From Verrucomicrobiales bacterium (GTDB taxonomy: Bacteria > Verrucomicrobiota > Verrucomicrobiia > Limisphaerales > UBA1100): a stretch of DNA of 48,176 bases. Location of the stretch: positions 1 through 48,176 of the forward strand of contig SYLI01000087.1 of NCBI GenBank assembly GCA_005809105.1, in the 5' to 3' direction. Under the pieces are notes generated by a model. The model was not told where the DNA came from, searched no databases, and worked only from the letters and a program-made list of their open reading frames with translations. How positions within the stretch are numbered: position 1 is the first letter of the stretch; the number at the start of each line of letters is the position of its first letter. The translations under genes were made by a program, and so were the position numbers. Shown one piece after another: positions 11,089 to 18,472 of this stretch.

Positions 11089-12231
11089 CTAGCCGGTCGC
11101 GGCCAGCGTGATCAACGCCTCGAGCAGCGCGGCCCAATCTTCGGGCGCGGTTTCAGGCCCGCCACTAAATCGCAGTGCGCGCCCCGCGGCCGCCGCATCA
11201 AAACCCATGGCGAGCAGCACGTGACTGGGGGACTCCTTGCCGCTGGCGCACGCGCTGCCGGTGGACACGGCAAAACCCGCCTTGTCCAGCTTCACCACCC
11301 AGCGCGACCGGCAATCGGCCTCTGGCATCACCACGCTCAGAGTGTTCCACAGCCGCGGCGCACCCGCCCCCACCACCACGCATCCGGGCAATCGCGAAAC
11401 CAGCTGGGACTCGAACTGGGTTTTCGCGTCTGAAAAGTCCCCGCTGGTCATGGCCTTCTGGCGCGCGTTAAGCGCCGCTACCATCGCCAGTGCGCCCGCG
11501 ACATTCTCCGTGCCGGCACGGCGGCCGTCCTCCTGCGCGCCGCCAAGGTGCATCGGCTCAAATCGCCCCTGAGAGGGCACCTTCAGAAAGCCCATTCCGC
11601 GCGGCCCGCCAAATTTGTGCGCGCTGGCACTCACAAAGTCGCAGCCGCCCAGCTCCTGCGCCGGCAACCGGCCCAGCCATTGCACGGCGTCGCAGAAGAA
11701 GGGCGCATCCACCCGCCGGCACAACTCCCGCGCCTCGCGCCAGGGTTGCAGCACGCCGGTCTCATTGTTGGCCGCCATGAGCGCCACCACCGCGGGCACG
11801 GCATTCCCAAGGCGCTGCTCCAACCAGTTTAGATCCGCCACACCCTCTCTCGTGACGGGGATGAAGTGATGCGTGCGTGGAAAGTGGCGGCGGGCGGCCT
11901 CGATCACGCAGGGATGCTCGATGGCTGAAAGCCACGCTTCGGTCCCCGGTGCCGCGGCGTGCGCCGCATGGTGAAACACGGCGTTCGCCGATTCGGTCGC
12001 GCCGCTGGTCCACACCAGATCGAGCGCGTCGCATCCCAATATGCCCGCCACCTGCTGGCGCGCACCTGCAAGCGCCGCCTCCGCGCGCTGACCCCACCGG
12101 TGCGGGCTGGAGGGATTGCCGGGAAATTGTTCTGAGGCCGCCAGCCACGCCTCGCGTGCGGCCGGGTGCAGCGGCGCCGTCGCGTTGTGGTCAAAGTAGC
12201 GCACGCCTTTTTTTAGGGGAGAGCGGCGCAT
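11089..12231 (-). CDS. Cysteine desulfurase, NifS/IscS family
   Basis: This 380-residue PLP enzyme takes sulfur from cysteine as an enzyme persulfide for Fe-S clusters or other thio-cofactors. YFDHNATAPLHP is the family N-terminus, SGATESANAV and AANNETGVLQP contact PLP, SASAHKFGGPRG holds the PLP lysine (about Lys206), and STGSACASGK holds the persulfide cysteine (about Cys328). The frame opens as far back as 12324, but that would overlap the divergent lipoyl-carrier gene, and MRRSPLKKGVRYFDHNATAP at 12231 is the natural start. No IscU scaffold is adjacent. It is divergent, by 70 bases, from an operon rich in Fe-S and lipoyl proteins, a setting where a sulfur donor would make sense. Confidence 0.92.
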   Translation of the reverse strand: MRRSPLKKGVRYFDHNATAPLHPAAREAWLAASEQFPGNPSSPHRWGQRAEAALAGARQQVAGILGCDALDLVWTSGATESANAVFHHAAHAAAPGTEAWLSAIEHPCVIEAARRHFPRTHHFIPVTREGVADLNWLEQRLGNAVPAVVALMAANNETGVLQPWREARELCRRVDAPFFCDAVQWLGRLPAQELGGCDFVSASAHKFGGPRGMGFLKVPSQGRFEPMHLGGAQEDGRRAGTENVAGALAMVAALNARQKAMTSGDFSDAKTQFESQLVSRLPGCVVVGAGAPRLWNTLSVVMPEADCRSRWVVKLDKAGFAVSTGSACASGKESPSHVLLAMGFDAAAAGRALRFSGGPETAPEDWAALLEALITLAATG

Positions 12232-12243
12232 CCGACAAGCCAC

Positions 12244-12274
12244 GCCCGCGCGACATCCGACTTTGCGCGCGGGC
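12244..12274. promoter_or_regulatory. Perfect 9-bp inverted repeat between the divergent desulfurase and lipoyl-operon genes
   Basis: The half-sites gcccgcgcg (12244-12252) and cgcgcgggc (12266-12274) are exact inverted copies, 22 bases centre to centre, or about two helical turns. They lie inside the 70-base region separating the two divergent start codons. It could be an operator for a dimeric regulator or a leader hairpin. Being all G/C in a GC-rich genome lowers its significance. Confidence 0.35.
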
Positions 12275-12301
12275 CCTTCTGTGGTTTGCTCTCGCCCACA
12301 C

Positions 12302-12781
12302 ATGGGTTCGAGCCGCTCCGCCACGCAACTCTACCGGCGCTCGCACTTCGTGACCCAACTGCCCGTGGCCCACCTTTTCAGCCCGTCGCATTTCTGGATT
12401 GCGCCTGCGCCCGATGAGCCGGGGCTCTGGCGCGTCGGCCTCACGAAGTTTGCCAGCCGCATGCTCGGCGAAATGGTGGATCTGGGAATCGACACGGAAG
12501 TGGATGCGCCGGTTTCTCCGGGCCAGATTCTTGGCTGGGTGGAGGGCTTCAAGGCCATCTCAGACGTGTACTGCATCGCGAGCGGCCACTTTGCCGGCGC
12601 CAACGGCGCGCTGCGATCCAACCTTGCGCTGGTTGCGAAGGACTGCCACGGCGCGGGCTGGTTTTACGCCGTGCGGGGCGAGCCCGACCCGCAGTGTCTG
12701 GACATCGCGGCGTACCGCGCGCTGCTGGACAAGACCATTGACCGCATCCTGGAGAAGCAGAAGGGGGATCAAATCCAATGA
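12302..12781 (+). CDS. Orphan GcvH-like lipoyl carrier protein
   Basis: The 159-residue protein has the GcvH fold signature: VGLTKFASRMLGEMVDLGI, then GQILGWVEGFKAISDVYCIA, where Lys84 is at the place of the lipoylated lysine, then the SGHFAGAN turn. Classic GcvH carries the aminomethyl group in glycine cleavage and is about 125-130 residues. This one is longer, with an N-terminal extension and a helical tail, and no gcvT, gcvP or lpd is nearby. Its stop overlaps the GTPase start (ATGA), so it leads a dedicated operon with Fe-S and prenyl-synthase genes. That is reminiscent of the LbpA-type lipoyl proteins of the sulfur-oxidising Hdr-like system. I infer a lipoyl carrier with a non-glycine role. 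The in-frame alternative TTG at 12263 is less likely. Confidence 0.85.
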   Translation: MGSSRSATQLYRRSHFVTQLPVAHLFSPSHFWIAPAPDEPGLWRVGLTKFASRMLGEMVDLGIDTEVDAPVSPGQILGWVEGFKAISDVYCIASGHFAGANGALRSNLALVAKDCHGAGWFYAVRGEPDPQCLDIAAYRALLDKTIDRILEKQKGDQIQ

Positions 12782-13911
12782 CCCGTTCCGATGGCAGCAC
12801 TCCTGCGCACGCGCGCTACATCATGGTGGGGGGCTTTCTGGGCGCGGGCAAGACCACGGCCATCGCGTGTCTCGCACGACATCTTGCAGTAGGCGGGCTG
12901 CGGGTGGGCCTCATCACCAACGATCAGGGCAGCAATCTGGTGGACACCGCCTCGCTCCGCGCCCGCGGCTATGCAACCGAGGAGATCGCCGGCGGCTGCT
13001 TTTGTTGCCGTTTTGATTCGCTGGTGGAGGCCGCGGCCCGGCTTTCGCGCGAGGCGCGGCCGGACGTGTTCATCGCCGAGCCGGTGGGAAGCTGCACGGA
13101 TCTGGTGGCCACGGTGTCGTATCCACTGAGGCGCATGTACGGGGCGCAATTTGCCATCGCCCCCTTGAGCGTGCTGGTGGATCCGGTGCGCGCGGCACGC
13201 GTGCTGGGGCTGGAACCGGGTGCGCCGTTCTCGGACAAGGTTCTCTACATCTACCGCAAGCAGCTGGAGGAAGCCGACCTCATCCTCATCAACAAGTGCG
13301 ACACTTTGGAAGCGGCCCGTGCCGACACGTTGCGAGCCGCCTTGGCCCGCGAGTTCCCGCAGGCCAGCCTGCTGGAAATCTCCGCGCGCACCGGCGCCGG
13401 GATGGACGCATGGTTCGCGCGTGTCACGGGCTCCGAACAGGTCGCCCGCGCCGTGATGGACGTCGACTACGAAACGTACGCTGAAGGCGAAGCACTGCTT
13501 GGCTGGCTCAATGCCACGGCAGAGCTCGACGCGCCCGGTGGATTCGACGCCAACACCGCGCTGCACCAGCTCGCGTCAGACGTGCAGGCGCGGCTTCGCG
13601 CGCAGGCCGCGGAGGTCGCCCATCTCAAGATGACGCTGAGCCCCGAAGGCGGATTGGGGGGCGAGGTTGCGGTCATCAATCTGGTGCGCACGGATTTTGT
13701 GCCAGAGCTCTCCGCGCGACTTGAAGGGCGCACGGCGCGGGGCCAGCTTATTCTTAACCTGCGCGCCGAGGCGGCGCCCGACACGCTCTCCCAAGCCGTC
13801 CGCGAAGCCTGTGCTGCCCTGTCGCAGATGGCTGGCGTGCGATGCACGCTGGAACATCTGGAGTGTTTCCGCCCCGGCAAGCCCGTGCCGACGCACCGGG
13901 TGGCGGGTTGA
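12778..13911 (+). CDS. G3E-family (CobW/HypB/UreG-like) GTPase
   Basis: The 377-residue product carries IMVGGFLGAGKTTAIACLA (P-loop, about 15-33), LITNDQG (switch region), GGCFCCRF (the CxCC metal-binding motif of CobW-type proteins, about Cys74-77) and LINKCD (guanine specificity, about 171-175). These proteins use GTP hydrolysis to load metals or cofactors into client enzymes. An unusual EPVGSCTDLVATV replaces the usual ES-G strand, marking a distinct subfamily. The C-terminal 150 residues differ from the CobW C-terminal domain. It overlaps the lipoyl carrier gene by four bases, so its client is probably encoded in this operon; which metal or cofactor is involved is unknown. Confidence 0.88.
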   Translation: MTRSDGSTPAHARYIMVGGFLGAGKTTAIACLARHLAVGGLRVGLITNDQGSNLVDTASLRARGYATEEIAGGCFCCRFDSLVEAAARLSREARPDVFIAEPVGSCTDLVATVSYPLRRMYGAQFAIAPLSVLVDPVRAARVLGLEPGAPFSDKVLYIYRKQLEEADLILINKCDTLEAARADTLRAALAREFPQASLLEISARTGAGMDAWFARVTGSEQVARAVMDVDYETYAEGEALLGWLNATAELDAPGGFDANTALHQLASDVQARLRAQAAEVAHLKMTLSPEGGLGGEVAVINLVRTDFVPELSARLEGRTARGQLILNLRAEAAPDTLSQAVREACAALSQMAGVRCTLEHLECFRPGKPVPTHRVAG

Positions 13912-13956
13912 AACCGCAGTTGCCCGCGCGCGCCCTTCCGCGCTACCCTGCGGCGT

Positions 13957-14358
13957 ATGTCCGAAGCCCCGCGCATCCTCTACTGCCACTGCGCTTATGC
14001 GCAGGTGGTGCCGGAGGAAGTGAAGGCCGCGGTTCTTCACCGGCTCTGCGCGAGTGGCGTGGCATTTGACGCCGTGGCGGACTTGTGCGAGATGGCCGCC
14101 CGCCGCGATACCACCTTGCAGCGTCTGGCCTCGGGCGGCGCGGTCAAGATTGCGGCGTGCTTTCCAAGAGCCGTGAAGGGACTTTTTCATCAGGCCGGCG
14201 CCGACCTGCCCGCCGACCGGGTTGAGGTGCTGAATATGCGCACACTCAGCGCGGAAGCCGTCTGCCAGTCCCTGGAAGGCGGCGTGTTGACGCCCAATCT
14301 GCCAGTCGAAAAATCCCCGGCGGCATTGGCGGCGGCCGCGTCACGAACCAAACCATGA
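13957..14358 (+). CDS. Small cysteine protein resembling the HdrA N-terminal domain
   Basis: This 133-residue protein begins with ILYCHCAYAQVVPEEVKAAV (Cys10, His11, Cys12), continues with a buried-helix pattern ending DLCEMAARRD (Cys44), and has VKIAACFPRAVKGLF (Cys68). The AACxPRxxxxLF pattern resembles the N-terminal segment of heterodisulfide-reductase HdrA-like proteins, which helps bind an Fe-S cluster or contact partners. The similarity is only by eye and the rest of HdrA (flavin domain) is absent. It overlaps the ferredoxin gene by four bases, suggesting that the two form one complex, perhaps a split Hdr-type electron module. The gap from the GTPase gene is 45 bases. Confidence 0.65.
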   Translation: MSEAPRILYCHCAYAQVVPEEVKAAVLHRLCASGVAFDAVADLCEMAARRDTTLQRLASGGAVKIAACFPRAVKGLFHQAGADLPADRVEVLNMRTLSAEAVCQSLEGGVLTPNLPVEKSPAALAAAASRTKP

Positions 14359-15212
14359 GCATCCGCGACCAATCCACCCTGCGGGTCATCCTCTACGAAG
14401 GCGCGGATGCCCAGCCGCTGGATTCCGGCGGCACGTACGCCGTGATGCGCAGCCTGCTGGAACGCGGCTTTGCTGTGACACGCGCAAGCCTTGGGGGCAG
14501 CGTGGCTCCGGCCGACCGCACTGAGCTGCTGGTGCTGGGGCGCTTTGCCGGCGGGCACGCGCCCAGGCTCGAGGATGCACAGGGACGGGTTGCCGTGGAA
14601 TCCCTGGACATCACCGGGCTTGATGCCGATGCGGTGGCCGGCCGCGTGGAGTCGCAGCGCGAGCTGCGCGGCGCCGCCCGCCACGGCGAGTGGAGGCCGT
14701 GGTTCCCCGTCATCGACTACGACCGCTGCACCAACTGCATGCAGTGCCTTTCGTTCTGTCTCTTCGGCGTGTACGGCGCAGACTCTGCCGGGCGCATCGA
14801 CGTGCAGTCGCCCGACCAATGCAAGACGAACTGCCCGGCGTGCAGTCGCGTGTGTCCGGAGGCGGCCATCATGTTTCCCAAGTACAAGGCCGGGCCCATC
14901 AATGGCGACGTCGTCACGGCGGCCGATCTGGGCCGCGAGCGGATGAAGGTGGACATCTCCGCGTTGCTGGGAGGCGACGTGTACGCGTCGCTACGCCAGC
15001 GCAGTGACGACGCCAAGGTGCGCTTTAGCAAGGAGCGCGACGAGAAGAAGGCGCTGGCCGAGCGCCAGAAGTGCCTCACCAAACTGGCGCAGGCCGGCGA
15101 CATTCCCGCCGAGGTGCTGATGAGCCTGCCGCCGCCCGATGAAATCCTGCGCCGCGCCCAAGAGGCCAAGGCCAAGGCCGCCGCGGCGTTGCAGGCGCAA
15201 ACGACGACATGA
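14355..15212 (+). CDS. Two-cluster [4Fe-4S] ferredoxin with N-terminal alpha/beta domain
   Basis: The product has 285 residues. Residues 1-110 form an alpha/beta domain of unknown role (RVILYEGADAQPLDSGG). PVIDYDRCTNCMQCLSFC gives Cys125, 128, 131 and 135, and QCKTNCPACSRVCPEA gives Cys156, 160, 163 and 167. This is enough for two [4Fe-4S] clusters, though the second motif has CxxxCxxCxxxC spacing. The last 85 residues are a charged helix rich in Lys, Glu and Ala. It would pass electrons within the cytoplasm, probably with the HdrA-like protein whose gene overlaps its start. Its own stop overlaps the next gene start (ATGA). The whole shape is much larger than a simple ferredoxin. Confidence 0.85.
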   Translation: MSIRDQSTLRVILYEGADAQPLDSGGTYAVMRSLLERGFAVTRASLGGSVAPADRTELLVLGRFAGGHAPRLEDAQGRVAVESLDITGLDADAVAGRVESQRELRGAARHGEWRPWFPVIDYDRCTNCMQCLSFCLFGVYGADSAGRIDVQSPDQCKTNCPACSRVCPEAAIMFPKYKAGPINGDVVTAADLGRERMKVDISALLGGDVYASLRQRSDDAKVRFSKERDEKKALAERQKCLTKLAQAGDIPAEVLMSLPPPDEILRRAQEAKAKAAAALQAQTTT

Positions 15213-15733
15213 GCCCATTCTTCCGCCACCAAGTCCTGGAAGAACTGCGGTGCCAGTGCCGCTTCGGTTTGCACGCCTACGAGCAGGTGATCGGGCACCT
15301 TCCGCTCAATGACCCGCAGGCGGTTTTCTTCTACGCGCACGCGCTGGTGCGGCACTCGCTGGATCTGGGCCGGATGCTCTGGCCGACCGATCCGGCCGCA
15401 GCCGAGCGCGGTGCGATGCTTCGCGAGGCCGTGGGCGCGCCCGCGCAACCGCCCCCGGACTGGCAGGGCTTCGCCGCGGTGGCCGATCACTTCGACACGC
15501 ACCTCATCGCCTGGTGCGGCAACGAATCCCATCGCGACGCGCAGCCGATGAATGTGATGCCGGTGGGGCCGCTGGGCGGATTCCCCACCGACCGCTTTCA
15601 TCGCAGTCTCGATCCGGATTCCATGCAGTTCCTCTTCGAAGGGCAGGCCGTGAACCTGCGTCAGATGGCAGATGTCATCCGGAATGTCGGCTCGGGCGCA
15701 GAGCGGTGGCTGCGCCGCAACAGCACCCCGTGA
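15209..15733 (+). CDS. Hypothetical mainly helical protein of the lipoyl-ferredoxin operon
   Basis: I do not recognise this 174-residue protein. The first half is helical and His-rich (HQVLEELRCQCRFGLHAYEQV, then FFYAHALVRHSLDLGRMLWP). The second half has DHFDTHLIAWCGNESHRDAQ and NVMPVGPLGGFPTDRF. Numerous His, Asp and Cys residues could bind metal but make no known motif. There is no signal peptide or membrane helix. The gene overlaps the ferredoxin gene by four bases, so it is translationally coupled and likely part of the same pathway. A gap of 113 bases with nothing recognisable follows before the DUF116 fusion gene. Confidence 0.7.
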   Translation: MSPFFRHQVLEELRCQCRFGLHAYEQVIGHLPLNDPQAVFFYAHALVRHSLDLGRMLWPTDPAAAERGAMLREAVGAPAQPPPDWQGFAAVADHFDTHLIAWCGNESHRDAQPMNVMPVGPLGGFPTDRFHRSLDPDSMQFLFEGQAVNLRQMADVIRNVGSGAERWLRRNSTP

Positions 15734-15846
15734 GGGGGCGGGCATTTTGGGTTCGACACACGGCATGCCCAGCCCCAGAGTCCCCGTTCAACACGCGATG
15801 AACCACCCTTGGTGCGCCGCAGGCTGCTGACACCCGCCACCCATTC

Positions 15847-17574
15847 ATGTCCACGCCCCTCCAGCTTGCCATCCCGCGCCCGGTGCCGACGCGCAAGCCA
15901 CGCAAGCCCAAGGATAACGTGCCGCAGACGCGCCCCGAGCGCGAACGCGCCTTGGCCGCCGTGCGTGCCTACGTGGCGGAATTTAACCCCGTGCCACCGC
16001 TGCCGGTGGAGGATCTTAAAGTGCACGCGGGGCGCGTGCTCGCCCAGCTTCAATGGCCGGAGATTTACCGCGACTACATTGGCGTGCTGATCAACAACGA
16101 GAGCTGGCGCGAGCAACTCGCCGCCGTCCCCTACGAGCGGCGGCTGCTGCTGCTGCCCAAATGCCTGCGCGTGGAAAGCCGGTGCCCGGCGCCCTTTGAC
16201 GAATTTGGCCTGCTGTGCAAGCAGTGCGGGCTGTGCACCATTCAGGATCTTCAGGCCGAGGCGGAGAAGCTGGGTTACGCCACCCTCGTGGCGGAAGGCT
16301 CGGCCATCGTCATGTCGCTCATCCAGACGGGCAAGGTTGAGGCCATCGTCGGGGTCAGCTGCCTGCCCGTGCTCGAGCGCGCCTTTCCCTACATGGAAGC
16401 GGCGGCCGTTCCCGGTGTCGCCATTCCGCTGCTGCAGGACGACTGCATCGACACCACCGTGGACGAGGAATGGATCTGGGACTACATCCACCTCACCAGC
16501 GACGACCACACCCGCCGCCTGGATCTGGGCCGGCTGCGCGACGAGGTGGCCGCGTGGTTCACGCCCGAGTCGCTGCGCACCGCGCTGGGAGAACCTCAGG
16601 GTGAATCCGAGCGCATCGCCCACGAATGGTTGGCGCGCGCCGGCAAACGCTGGCGCCCCTTTTTGGCCGTCGCCGCCTGTCAGGCGTTGCGCCCTCAGCG
16701 GGAGATGGCGCAGCTTGAGGATGTGAAACCCATCGCGCTGGCGGTGGAGTGCTTTCACAAGGCGTCGCTCATCCACGACGACATTGAGGACGGGGACGCG
16801 CTGCGCTACGGCGAAAAGACGCTGCACGCCCAATACGGTGTCGCCGTCGCGCTCAATGTGGGCGACCTCTTGATTGGCGAAGGCTACCGCTTGATCGCCC
16901 AATGCAAGGCTTCCGCAGAACAACGCGCGGCCATGCTTGAGGTTGCCGCCACCGGCCAGCGCGAGCTCTGCCGCGGTCAGGGTGCGGAGCTCTGCTGGCA
17001 GCGCTCGCCCGAACCCATGAGCACGCTGCAGGTGCTCGACATCTTCCGCAAGAAAACCGCACCCGCCTTCGAGGTGGCCTTGCAGCTTGGCGCCATCCAT
17101 GCCGGGCTTGACGCCCACGCCGCCGTGTCCGCCACCCTGCGCCAATACAGCGAGGCGCTGGGCATCGCTTATCAGATCCGCGACGATCTCCATGACCTTG
17201 TGGATTCGGACGCGCCCAATGACTTGAGCGCCATGCGCCCGAGCCTGCTTCTGGCCGTGGCGCACGAGCGGGCGAAAGACGCCGATCGCGAGCTGACGGA
17301 TGCGCTCTGGCATCGCCAGACTCCCGCCGGATACGACGCCGCAAAACTGGCGGCGTTGTGCCGCCGGCTCAAGGCGGTGGAACGCGCTGAATCTCTGCTG
17401 GCCACGTACAAAGAGGAGGCCGTGCGCGCGTTGGCGGATTTGGAAAATCCCAATCTGAAGGGGCTGCTGCGCCGGGTCATCGGCAAGATCTTTGACGAGA
17501 CCGAAATCAAGGGTTGGTGCAGCGAAGTGCAGGCATCCGAACTGCATCAGGTCCGCCGGCAGGCCATCGCCTGA
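15847..17574 (+). CDS. DUF116 domain fused to trans-polyprenyl diphosphate synthase
   Basis: The product has 575 residues. Residues about 95-235 match DUF116, a cysteine-rich domain of unknown function: LLLLPKCLRVESRCPAP, LLCKQCGLCTIQD (Cys124, 127, 130), VGVSCLPVLERAF and LLQDDCIDTTVD. Residues about 255-575 are an isoprenyl diphosphate synthase: AGKRWRPFLA, FHKASLIHDDIED (first Asp-rich motif, Asp311, 312, 315) and YQIRDDLHDLVD (second, Asp446, 447, 450). Both magnesium motifs are complete, so chain elongation of isoprenoid diphosphates is likely; product length cannot be predicted. Fusion of a putative metal or Fe-S domain to a prenyl synthase is unusual. It is followed 13 bases later by a prenyltransferase/cyclase-fold gene. 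Confidence 0.9.
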   Translation: MSTPLQLAIPRPVPTRKPRKPKDNVPQTRPERERALAAVRAYVAEFNPVPPLPVEDLKVHAGRVLAQLQWPEIYRDYIGVLINNESWREQLAAVPYERRLLLLPKCLRVESRCPAPFDEFGLLCKQCGLCTIQDLQAEAEKLGYATLVAEGSAIVMSLIQTGKVEAIVGVSCLPVLERAFPYMEAAAVPGVAIPLLQDDCIDTTVDEEWIWDYIHLTSDDHTRRLDLGRLRDEVAAWFTPESLRTALGEPQGESERIAHEWLARAGKRWRPFLAVAACQALRPQREMAQLEDVKPIALAVECFHKASLIHDDIEDGDALRYGEKTLHAQYGVAVALNVGDLLIGEGYRLIAQCKASAEQRAAMLEVAATGQRELCRGQGAELCWQRSPEPMSTLQVLDIFRKKTAPAFEVALQLGAIHAGLDAHAAVSATLRQYSEALGIAYQIRDDLHDLVDSDAPNDLSAMRPSLLLAVAHERAKDADRELTDALWHRQTPAGYDAAKLAALCRRLKAVERAESLLATYKEEAVRALADLENPNLKGLLRRVIGKIFDETEIKGWCSEVQASELHQVRRQAIA

Positions 17575-17587
17575 GCGGCTGGCGCTG

Positions 17588-18472
17588 ATGAGCCTGCGCC
17601 TCCAACTACTGCAGGTGGCGCGCCTTGCCCCGCGACTTCTGGGAGACTCCACCGAACTGGTTCGCGCCTACCTTCGCAGCCAGATGGCTGAGGGCGCAGG
17701 ACGCGACCGCGCCGGGCGCCCCGACCTCTACTACACCATCTTTGCGGTGGCCGGATTGCAGGCGCTGGACGAGCCTGTGCCCGAAGAACCTGTCGCCGCT
17801 TACTTGTTGTCGCATGGCGACGGCGCCGGGTTGGACTTCGTGCACCTCTCGGCACTCGCGCGATGCTGGGCGGCCATCGGCTCAGAGCGCATGCCTGAGG
17901 GACTCGCCGACGCGTTGCTCTCGCAACTCGAATCCTTCCGCAAACCCGACGGCGGTTACGAAGGCAACCGGACACTTTCCCACGGCAGTGCCTACGGCGC
18001 CTTTGTGGCGCTGGGTGCCTACGAGGATCTGGGCCGGCGCCCCCCGCAAATCCTGAAGCTGATCCAAAGCCTTAAACGGCTGGAGACTCCCGACCACGCG
18101 TGGAGCAATGTGCCCGGCGCCTCGGTCGGCGCCACCAACGCGACGGCGGGCGCCGTGGCGCTCATTCGATACCTGGGCTTTCCCGTCAACGACGCCGTGG
18201 GCAACTGGCTTCTGGCGCGCGCCCATGAACAGGGCGGCTTCGTGGCCGCGCCGGGCGCGCCCCTGCCCGATTTGCTCTCCACCGCCACGGTGCTGCATGC
18301 GCTGGCGGCCATGGATCGCCGCCTGCCGGCACCGTTGCACGAACGCTGCATGGATTTCATCGACAGCCTCTGGACCAACGATGGTGGCTTTCACGGGCAC
18401 TGGGCGGACGAACACGCCGATGCGGAGTACACGTTTTACGCGCTACTGGCGTTGGGACACCTGAGCCTGTGA
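17588..18472 (+). CDS. Prenyltransferase/terpene-cyclase alpha-barrel repeat protein
   Basis: The 294-residue product contains the (alpha/alpha) barrel repeats of protein-prenyltransferase beta subunits and squalene cyclases: SFRKPDGGYEGNRTLSHGSA, HEQGGFVAAPGAPLPDLLST and LWTNDGGFHGHWADEHADAE, then YTFYALLALGHL. The zinc-ligand Cys of protein prenyltransferases is not in its expected place, and the DxDD acid of squalene-hopene cyclase is absent. So it is either a different type of cyclase or an isoprenoid-binding protein. At this size it is only one barrel domain, not a 630-residue hopene cyclase. The gene lies 13 bases after a prenyl diphosphate synthase, a plausible source of its ligand. 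It overlaps the convergent symporter gene by 30 bases. Confidence 0.82.
   Translation: MSLRLQLLQVARLAPRLLGDSTELVRAYLRSQMAEGAGRDRAGRPDLYYTIFAVAGLQALDEPVPEEPVAAYLLSHGDGAGLDFVHLSALARCWAAIGSERMPEGLADALLSQLESFRKPDGGYEGNRTLSHGSAYGAFVALGAYEDLGRRPPQILKLIQSLKRLETPDHAWSNVPGASVGATNATAGAVALIRYLGFPVNDAVGNWLLARAHEQGGFVAAPGAPLPDLLSTATVLHALAAMDRRLPAPLHERCMDFIDSLWTNDGGFHGHWADEHADAEYTFYALLALGHLSL

Follow-up and report, generated by a model that had tools for sequence, protein, structure and literature searches.

The window analysed here, a 48,176-nucleotide stretch from a Verrucomicrobiales bacterium (contig SYLI01000087.1), contains seven tightly packed, co-directional plus-strand genes between positions 12302 and 18472, referred to below as A to G. 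Gene A (12302–12781) encodes a GcvH-like lipoyl-carrier protein of 159 amino acids (Pfam GCV_H), B (12778–13911) a G3E/CobW-type GTPase with a GGCFCC motif (Pfam cobW, 82 bits), C (13957–14358) an HdrA-N-like domain protein, D (14355–15212) a ferredoxin-like protein with two [4Fe-4S] motifs (Pfam Fer4 families), E (15209–15733) a helical protein of 174 amino acids, F (15847–17574) a fusion of DUF116 (118 bits) with a polyprenyl synthase (polyprenyl_synt, 155 bits), and G (17588–18472) a single α-α toroid (Prenyltrans, 43 bits). Neighbouring genes overlap by 4 bases at A/B, C/D and D/E, and 45, 113 and 13 bases separate B from C, E from F and F from G, respectively. Upstream of A, in divergent orientation, a minus-strand gene (11089–12324) encodes a NifS-type cysteine desulfurase (TIGR03402, 252 bits, below the cut-off of 531), and a sodium:solute symporter gene lies downstream of the operon on the opposite strand. 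The initial annotation had described the seven genes and their ATGA overlaps, all of which were recovered at the same positions, and its family readings of A (as a GCV_H fold), B, D, F and G were matched by Pfam or NCBIfam; C and E have no family match in either collection. E was found beside the other genes only in the window and at two further loci (L081 and L088), in the window's genus and one other member of the order, and it was set aside as a component of the module described below, given that it does not recur at other loci.

The operon belongs to a wider module, inherited together and comprising five proteins or more: C/D (C and D are fused in many relatives), a radical-SAM enzyme (c4), F, G and a protein of the squalene-hopene cyclase (SHC) family (c6). 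C, D and F belong to its core and G to the core of its gene order. Of 388 genomes searched in the phylum, 64 have F, 61 C/D, 61 c6 and 60 c4; these carriers add up to 65 genomes, 55 of which have all four. The pairwise overlaps range from 56 to 61 genomes, versus about 10 expected, with the proviso that genomes within families are related, so the co-occurrence p-values are too small and overstate independence. The carriers span many families, several of which mix carriers and non-carriers. The order of the cluster, established from 40 neighbourhoods in the phylum and 80 named loci, is C/D, radical SAM (c4 or a second family, n9), F, G and c6. An alignment scan with C/D returned at least 544 relatives, and the 80 named loci examined were among the matches listed. 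Of these, 51 have at least 5 kb downstream of C/D, and F was present there in 45, c6 in 42, G in 40 and a radical-SAM gene in 36. The C/D-F-G order is held across phyla, far above chance. Homologous clusters extend to Planctomycetota, among other groups, and the named loci include Lentisphaerae, Kiritimatiellae, Verrucomicrobia, Phycisphaerae, Brocadiia, Holophagae (Sulfidibacter corallicola and Acanthopleuribacter pedis), Bacteroidales (Parabacteroides sp. PF5-9), Pontiella sulfatireligans, one Desulfobacterales and one Omnitrophota MAG. At seven loci (L071, L074, L078, L079, L095, L099 and L100), PQQ-type propellers and a Tat NHL-like protein recur beside the module, as do a small Tat-type protein, a NapG-like ferredoxin and a NapH-like membrane protein.

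In the window's genome c4 and c6 lie off the operon, whereas in other genomes they lie within the cluster. Their location on other contigs placed two core proteins out of view of the initial annotation. Genomes of family f9 keep all four genes, with F apart from the other three. This scatter, a refuting condition set by the initial annotation, speaks against the operon as a unit but not against the pathway, the genes of which still occur together. The proposal of an undescribed conserved pathway joining Fe-S proteins to isoprenoid synthesis is supported by this co-inheritance and by the conservation of gene order across phyla.

Twelve cysteines are invariant in the Fe-S proteins, eight of them in D, which is a 4Fe-4S dicluster protein according to Pfam, and four in C, where they follow the pattern of the HdrA N-domain (CxC...DLC...AAC) and probably form a [4Fe-4S] site. 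The relation of C to the HdrA-N profile is weak (hhalign P 5e-4, probability 31%), with a score of 26.3, the highest of 50 column shuffles being 16.4, and a profile search returned no PDB match for the C domain. At several loci (L109, L113, L114, L116, L165, L180 (Phycisphaerae) and L218:2157-7126), genes for a NuoE-NuoF fusion and for 2Fe-2S/GltD-like proteins are found upstream of C/D; some of these loci also have genes for a Tat ferredoxin and a NapH-like protein, still further upstream. The NuoEF-like and GltD-like proteins preceding C/D suggest NADH as the source of the electrons that C and D would supply to the pathway. A BioB-like radical-SAM gene lies directly upstream of C/D at L095:6957-7883.

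The polyprenyl synthase part of F (Pfam E 3e-45) contains both DDxxD motifs, the second of which ends in Glu in three of 49 sequences, and the modelled C-terminal part of F has its structural matches in GGPP and decaprenyl-PP synthases (Z 32–34). Motifs and fold together identify F as a trans-polyprenyl diphosphate synthase. Small residues before the first DDxxD motif point to a long-chain product in prenyl synthases; the residues at this place in F, A306 and S307, are small and suggest a long-chain product here too. F would, then, make an all-trans polyprenyl diphosphate, probably a long one. All 49 sequences compared keep seven cysteines in the DUF116 part. When the complete F model was used for a fold search, prenyl synthases were the only matches listed; a search of a viral structure library made no addition, and no literature on DUF116 was found among open-licence PMC articles. 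The DUF116 half probably binds Fe-S clusters and may alter the product of F, for example by a reductive step.

The gene for c6 lies on contig C69 of the window's genome, unlinked to the operon. The c6 profile matches squalene-hopene cyclase structures with an E value of 4e-40, its PDADDT aligning with the catalytic PDVDDT, and DxDDT is present in 58 of 60 c6 ORFs, including the copy from the window's genome. As judged from its sequence, c6 belongs to the class II terpene cyclase superfamily and has an intact DXDD acid motif, through which it would protonate a prenyl chain and close rings. The copy in the window's genome scores 65 bits against the SHC equivalog TIGR01507, far from the cut-off of 431. 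No match to PF00494 (squalene/phytoene synthase) turned up in 20 of the 22 carriers searched, the complete Sulfidibacter genome and three further isolates among them; the search covers the known squalene-synthase families, many of the carriers are MAGs, and seven of 14 control genomes gave a match. In most carriers, the substrate of c6 thus does not come from known squalene synthases, and F, encoded close to c6, would be its obvious source. For this reason, c6 probably cyclises a polyprenyl compound made by F. The window's genome also has separate hopanoid genes, for a canonical SHC, HpnD and HpnH, on contigs C14 (L198) and C16 (L199), and HpnD and the canonical SHC imply that squalene is available in this organism, which has two class II cyclase-family proteins (the canonical SHC and c6). 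Two further polyprenyl synthases are encoded in this genome, one of them, by eye, near cytochrome bc genes.

The model of G (pLDDT 97) matches the β subunit of RabGGTase (Z 26, 2.7–2.8 Å over 265 residues, 18% identity), and its fold is related to those of protein prenyltransferase β subunits and terpene cyclases. The zinc ligands of RabGGTase β are D238, C240 and H290, and its diphosphate-binding residues R232 and K235. In a PDB profile alignment, D238 is kept in G as D228, C240 is replaced by L230, and R232 and K235 are without a counterpart; by inspection, the position of H290 is occupied by Y281. Seven residues of G are invariant in 38 sequences (D46, Y48, Y49, D228, D278, E280 and Y281). 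The loss of zinc and diphosphate-binding residues led to the rejection of G as a protein prenyltransferase β subunit, and argues instead that it is probably an isoprenoid enzyme or binder, one that would bind or process the same isoprenoid as c6 and F.

The c4 gene of the window's genome is split between the end of one contig (G000:C20:38710-39219) and the start of another, which holds its C-terminal part (G000:C81:1-168), a split that is likely to reflect an assembly break inside one gene. The c4 protein of locus L095 scores 46 bits against the HpnH equivalog TIGR03470 (cut-off 225), whereas the separate HpnH of the window's genome scores 357. The second radical-SAM family, n9, is weakly similar to the B12-binding TIGR04013 and is present at 20 loci (L109:10858-12453 and 19 others). 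In Phycisphaerae and in an Omnitrophota MAG, it occupies the place of c4, between C/D and F. The role of c4, and of n9 in Phycisphaerae, would be to decorate the product or the substrate.

Protein A scores 52 bits against Pfam GCV_H (cut-off 22) and 51 against the GcvH equivalog TIGR00527, below the cut-off of 115.85. E81 and K84, from the E-x-x-K motif, are invariant among its relatives, and A can be placed among the lipoyl carriers of GCV_H fold, with Lys84 as the predicted lipoyl site. The statement in the initial annotation that no glycine cleavage genes are present is true of the window but not of the genome, in which a canonical GcvH is encoded on contig C51, adjoined (by eye) by a GcvT-like ORF. 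The associated claim, that A is not the H protein of glycine cleavage in this genome, holds, given this separate GcvH and the equivalog score. The A subfamily was found in 12 of 378 genomes, every one of them a module carrier, with scores of at least 167 bits as opposed to at most 126 for other GcvH proteins; the canonical GcvH of the window's genome scores 160 because it was included in the alignment. A adjoins c4 in five genomes (G012, G118, G065, G066 and G218), overlapping it by 4 bases in two, an arrangement that connects A with the radical-SAM step, as an accessory of the module. At L216:8259-9961 and L217:8715-10465, the c4/A pair with its 4-base overlap is remote from the rest of the module. 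B, also accessory, is present at 22 loci, and at 14 loci the accessory NifS, which probably supplies Fe-S clusters to the module, is found next to A/B. In some of the hosts, A, B and NifS may all serve c4 or its cofactors.

Taken together, gene content, order, co-occurrence, motifs and folds, and the missing PF00494 matches, suggest, with a probability of about 0.55, that the module is an undescribed and widespread squalene-independent pathway to a cyclic isoprenoid (polyprenoid) involving Fe-S and radical-SAM enzymes, for which the operon would encode most of an anaerobic-type route bypassing squalene. The squalene available in the window's own organism and the low SHC equivalog score of c6 weigh against this reading. 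Several other functions can be envisaged. The module might make or remodel the prenyl tail of a quinone or of another membrane redox carrier, with F making the tail, the cyclase and radical-SAM enzymes modifying it, and the adjoining Fe-S and NapH-like proteins using it in respiration. F does come from a family that makes quinone tails, and NapH/NosR-like Fe-S membrane proteins, Tat ferredoxins, PQQ-type propellers and NuoEF-like proteins flank the cluster in many phyla. However, no UbiA-type head-group prenyltransferase was noted in any of the neighbour clusters that recur, respiratory-looking genes are missing near the window and at many other loci, and the window's genome has two other polyprenyl synthases, including the one near cytochrome bc genes, so that a role in tail synthesis seems possible but rather improbable. 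A divergent hopanoid or triterpene route, in which squalene would be the substrate of c6, as it is of SHC, and the remaining genes would encode tailoring enzymes, is consistent with the membership of c6 in the SHC superfamily and with the HpnD of the window's genome, but it appears quite improbable given that 20 of the 22 carriers gave no squalene/phytoene synthase match and that this genome already has a canonical SHC. The module resembles the hopanoid (hpn) pathway in combining a class II cyclase of the SHC family bearing DXDDT with a radical-SAM enzyme (HpnH in the hpn pathway). It differs in that most of its carriers are without squalene synthase, in its dedicated F, C/D Fe-S proteins and toroid G, and in the scores of c6 and c4, far under the SHC and HpnH equivalog cut-offs.

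The initial annotation favoured a lipoyl-bound intermediate that would be processed by an Fe-S module akin to that of Hdr-like sulfur oxidation and would connect to a prenyl product. A keeps its lipoyl lysine, occurs in module carriers only and adjoins c4 in several genomes, C resembles the HdrA N-domain, and the LbpA protein provides a precedent (PMC6067878). Like Hdr-like sulfur oxidation with LbpA, the module has a lipoyl carrier resembling but distinct from GcvH, a domain that may be of HdrA type and radical-SAM genes nearby (PMC6067878), but its core consists of isoprenoid enzymes and its GcvH-like protein is confined to a minority of module genomes. A lipoyl intermediate at the core fits poorly with an A subfamily in 12 of 378 genomes when C/D, c4, F and c6 each occur in about 60 of 388, about four fifths of the carriers being without A. 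No HdrB, HdrC or lipoate-protein ligase was found among the annotated proteins of the operon and its flanks or among the recurring neighbour clusters, and the sulfur-oxidation analogy comes down to a single shared domain type; this reading is unlikely. Prenylation of a protein or peptide, with G as a bacterial counterpart of the prenyltransferase β subunit transferring the prenyl diphosphate of F onto a thiol, seems very unlikely: G shares the fold of the RabGGTase/FTase β subunits, as its structural match indicates, but the losses of zinc and diphosphate-binding residues are conserved across 38 sequences and no α subunit was seen.

For the preferred squalene-independent pathway, the gromomycins of Streptomyces provide a precedent, being bacterial triterpenes formed from hexaprenyl diphosphate independently of squalene, by a proposed acid-initiated cyclisation (PMC12105684). 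The cyclase is a different one, GroF having DLADPD where c6 has DXDDT, and the gromomycin system is that of an aerobic actinomycete with Rieske oxygenases, whereas the module has radical-SAM and Fe-S proteins (PMC12105684). No description of the module was found in open-licence PMC articles on DUF116, cheilanthane cyclases or SHC/radical-SAM clusters. Tricyclic terpanes (cheilanthanes) in rocks and oils are “orphan biomarkers”, the source of which is not established and for which tricyclohexaprenol is the postulated precursor (PMC9247107). They are a speculative product class for the module, and it is doubtful, at long odds, that the module cyclises regular polyprenyl chains (hexaprenyl or longer) to tri- or polycyclic membrane lipids in anaerobes and is the source of cheilanthanes.

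A cyclase of the SHC family whose acid motif is intact is co-inherited with its own polyprenyl synthase, mostly in genomes without squalene synthase. This points to a new class of cyclic isoprenoids, which would span several bacterial phyla and include cultured species among its producers. If this is true, DUF116 would gain its first function, bacteria would have a further way to polycyclic terpenoids without squalene, and the orphan terpanes of sediments would have a candidate source open to testing.
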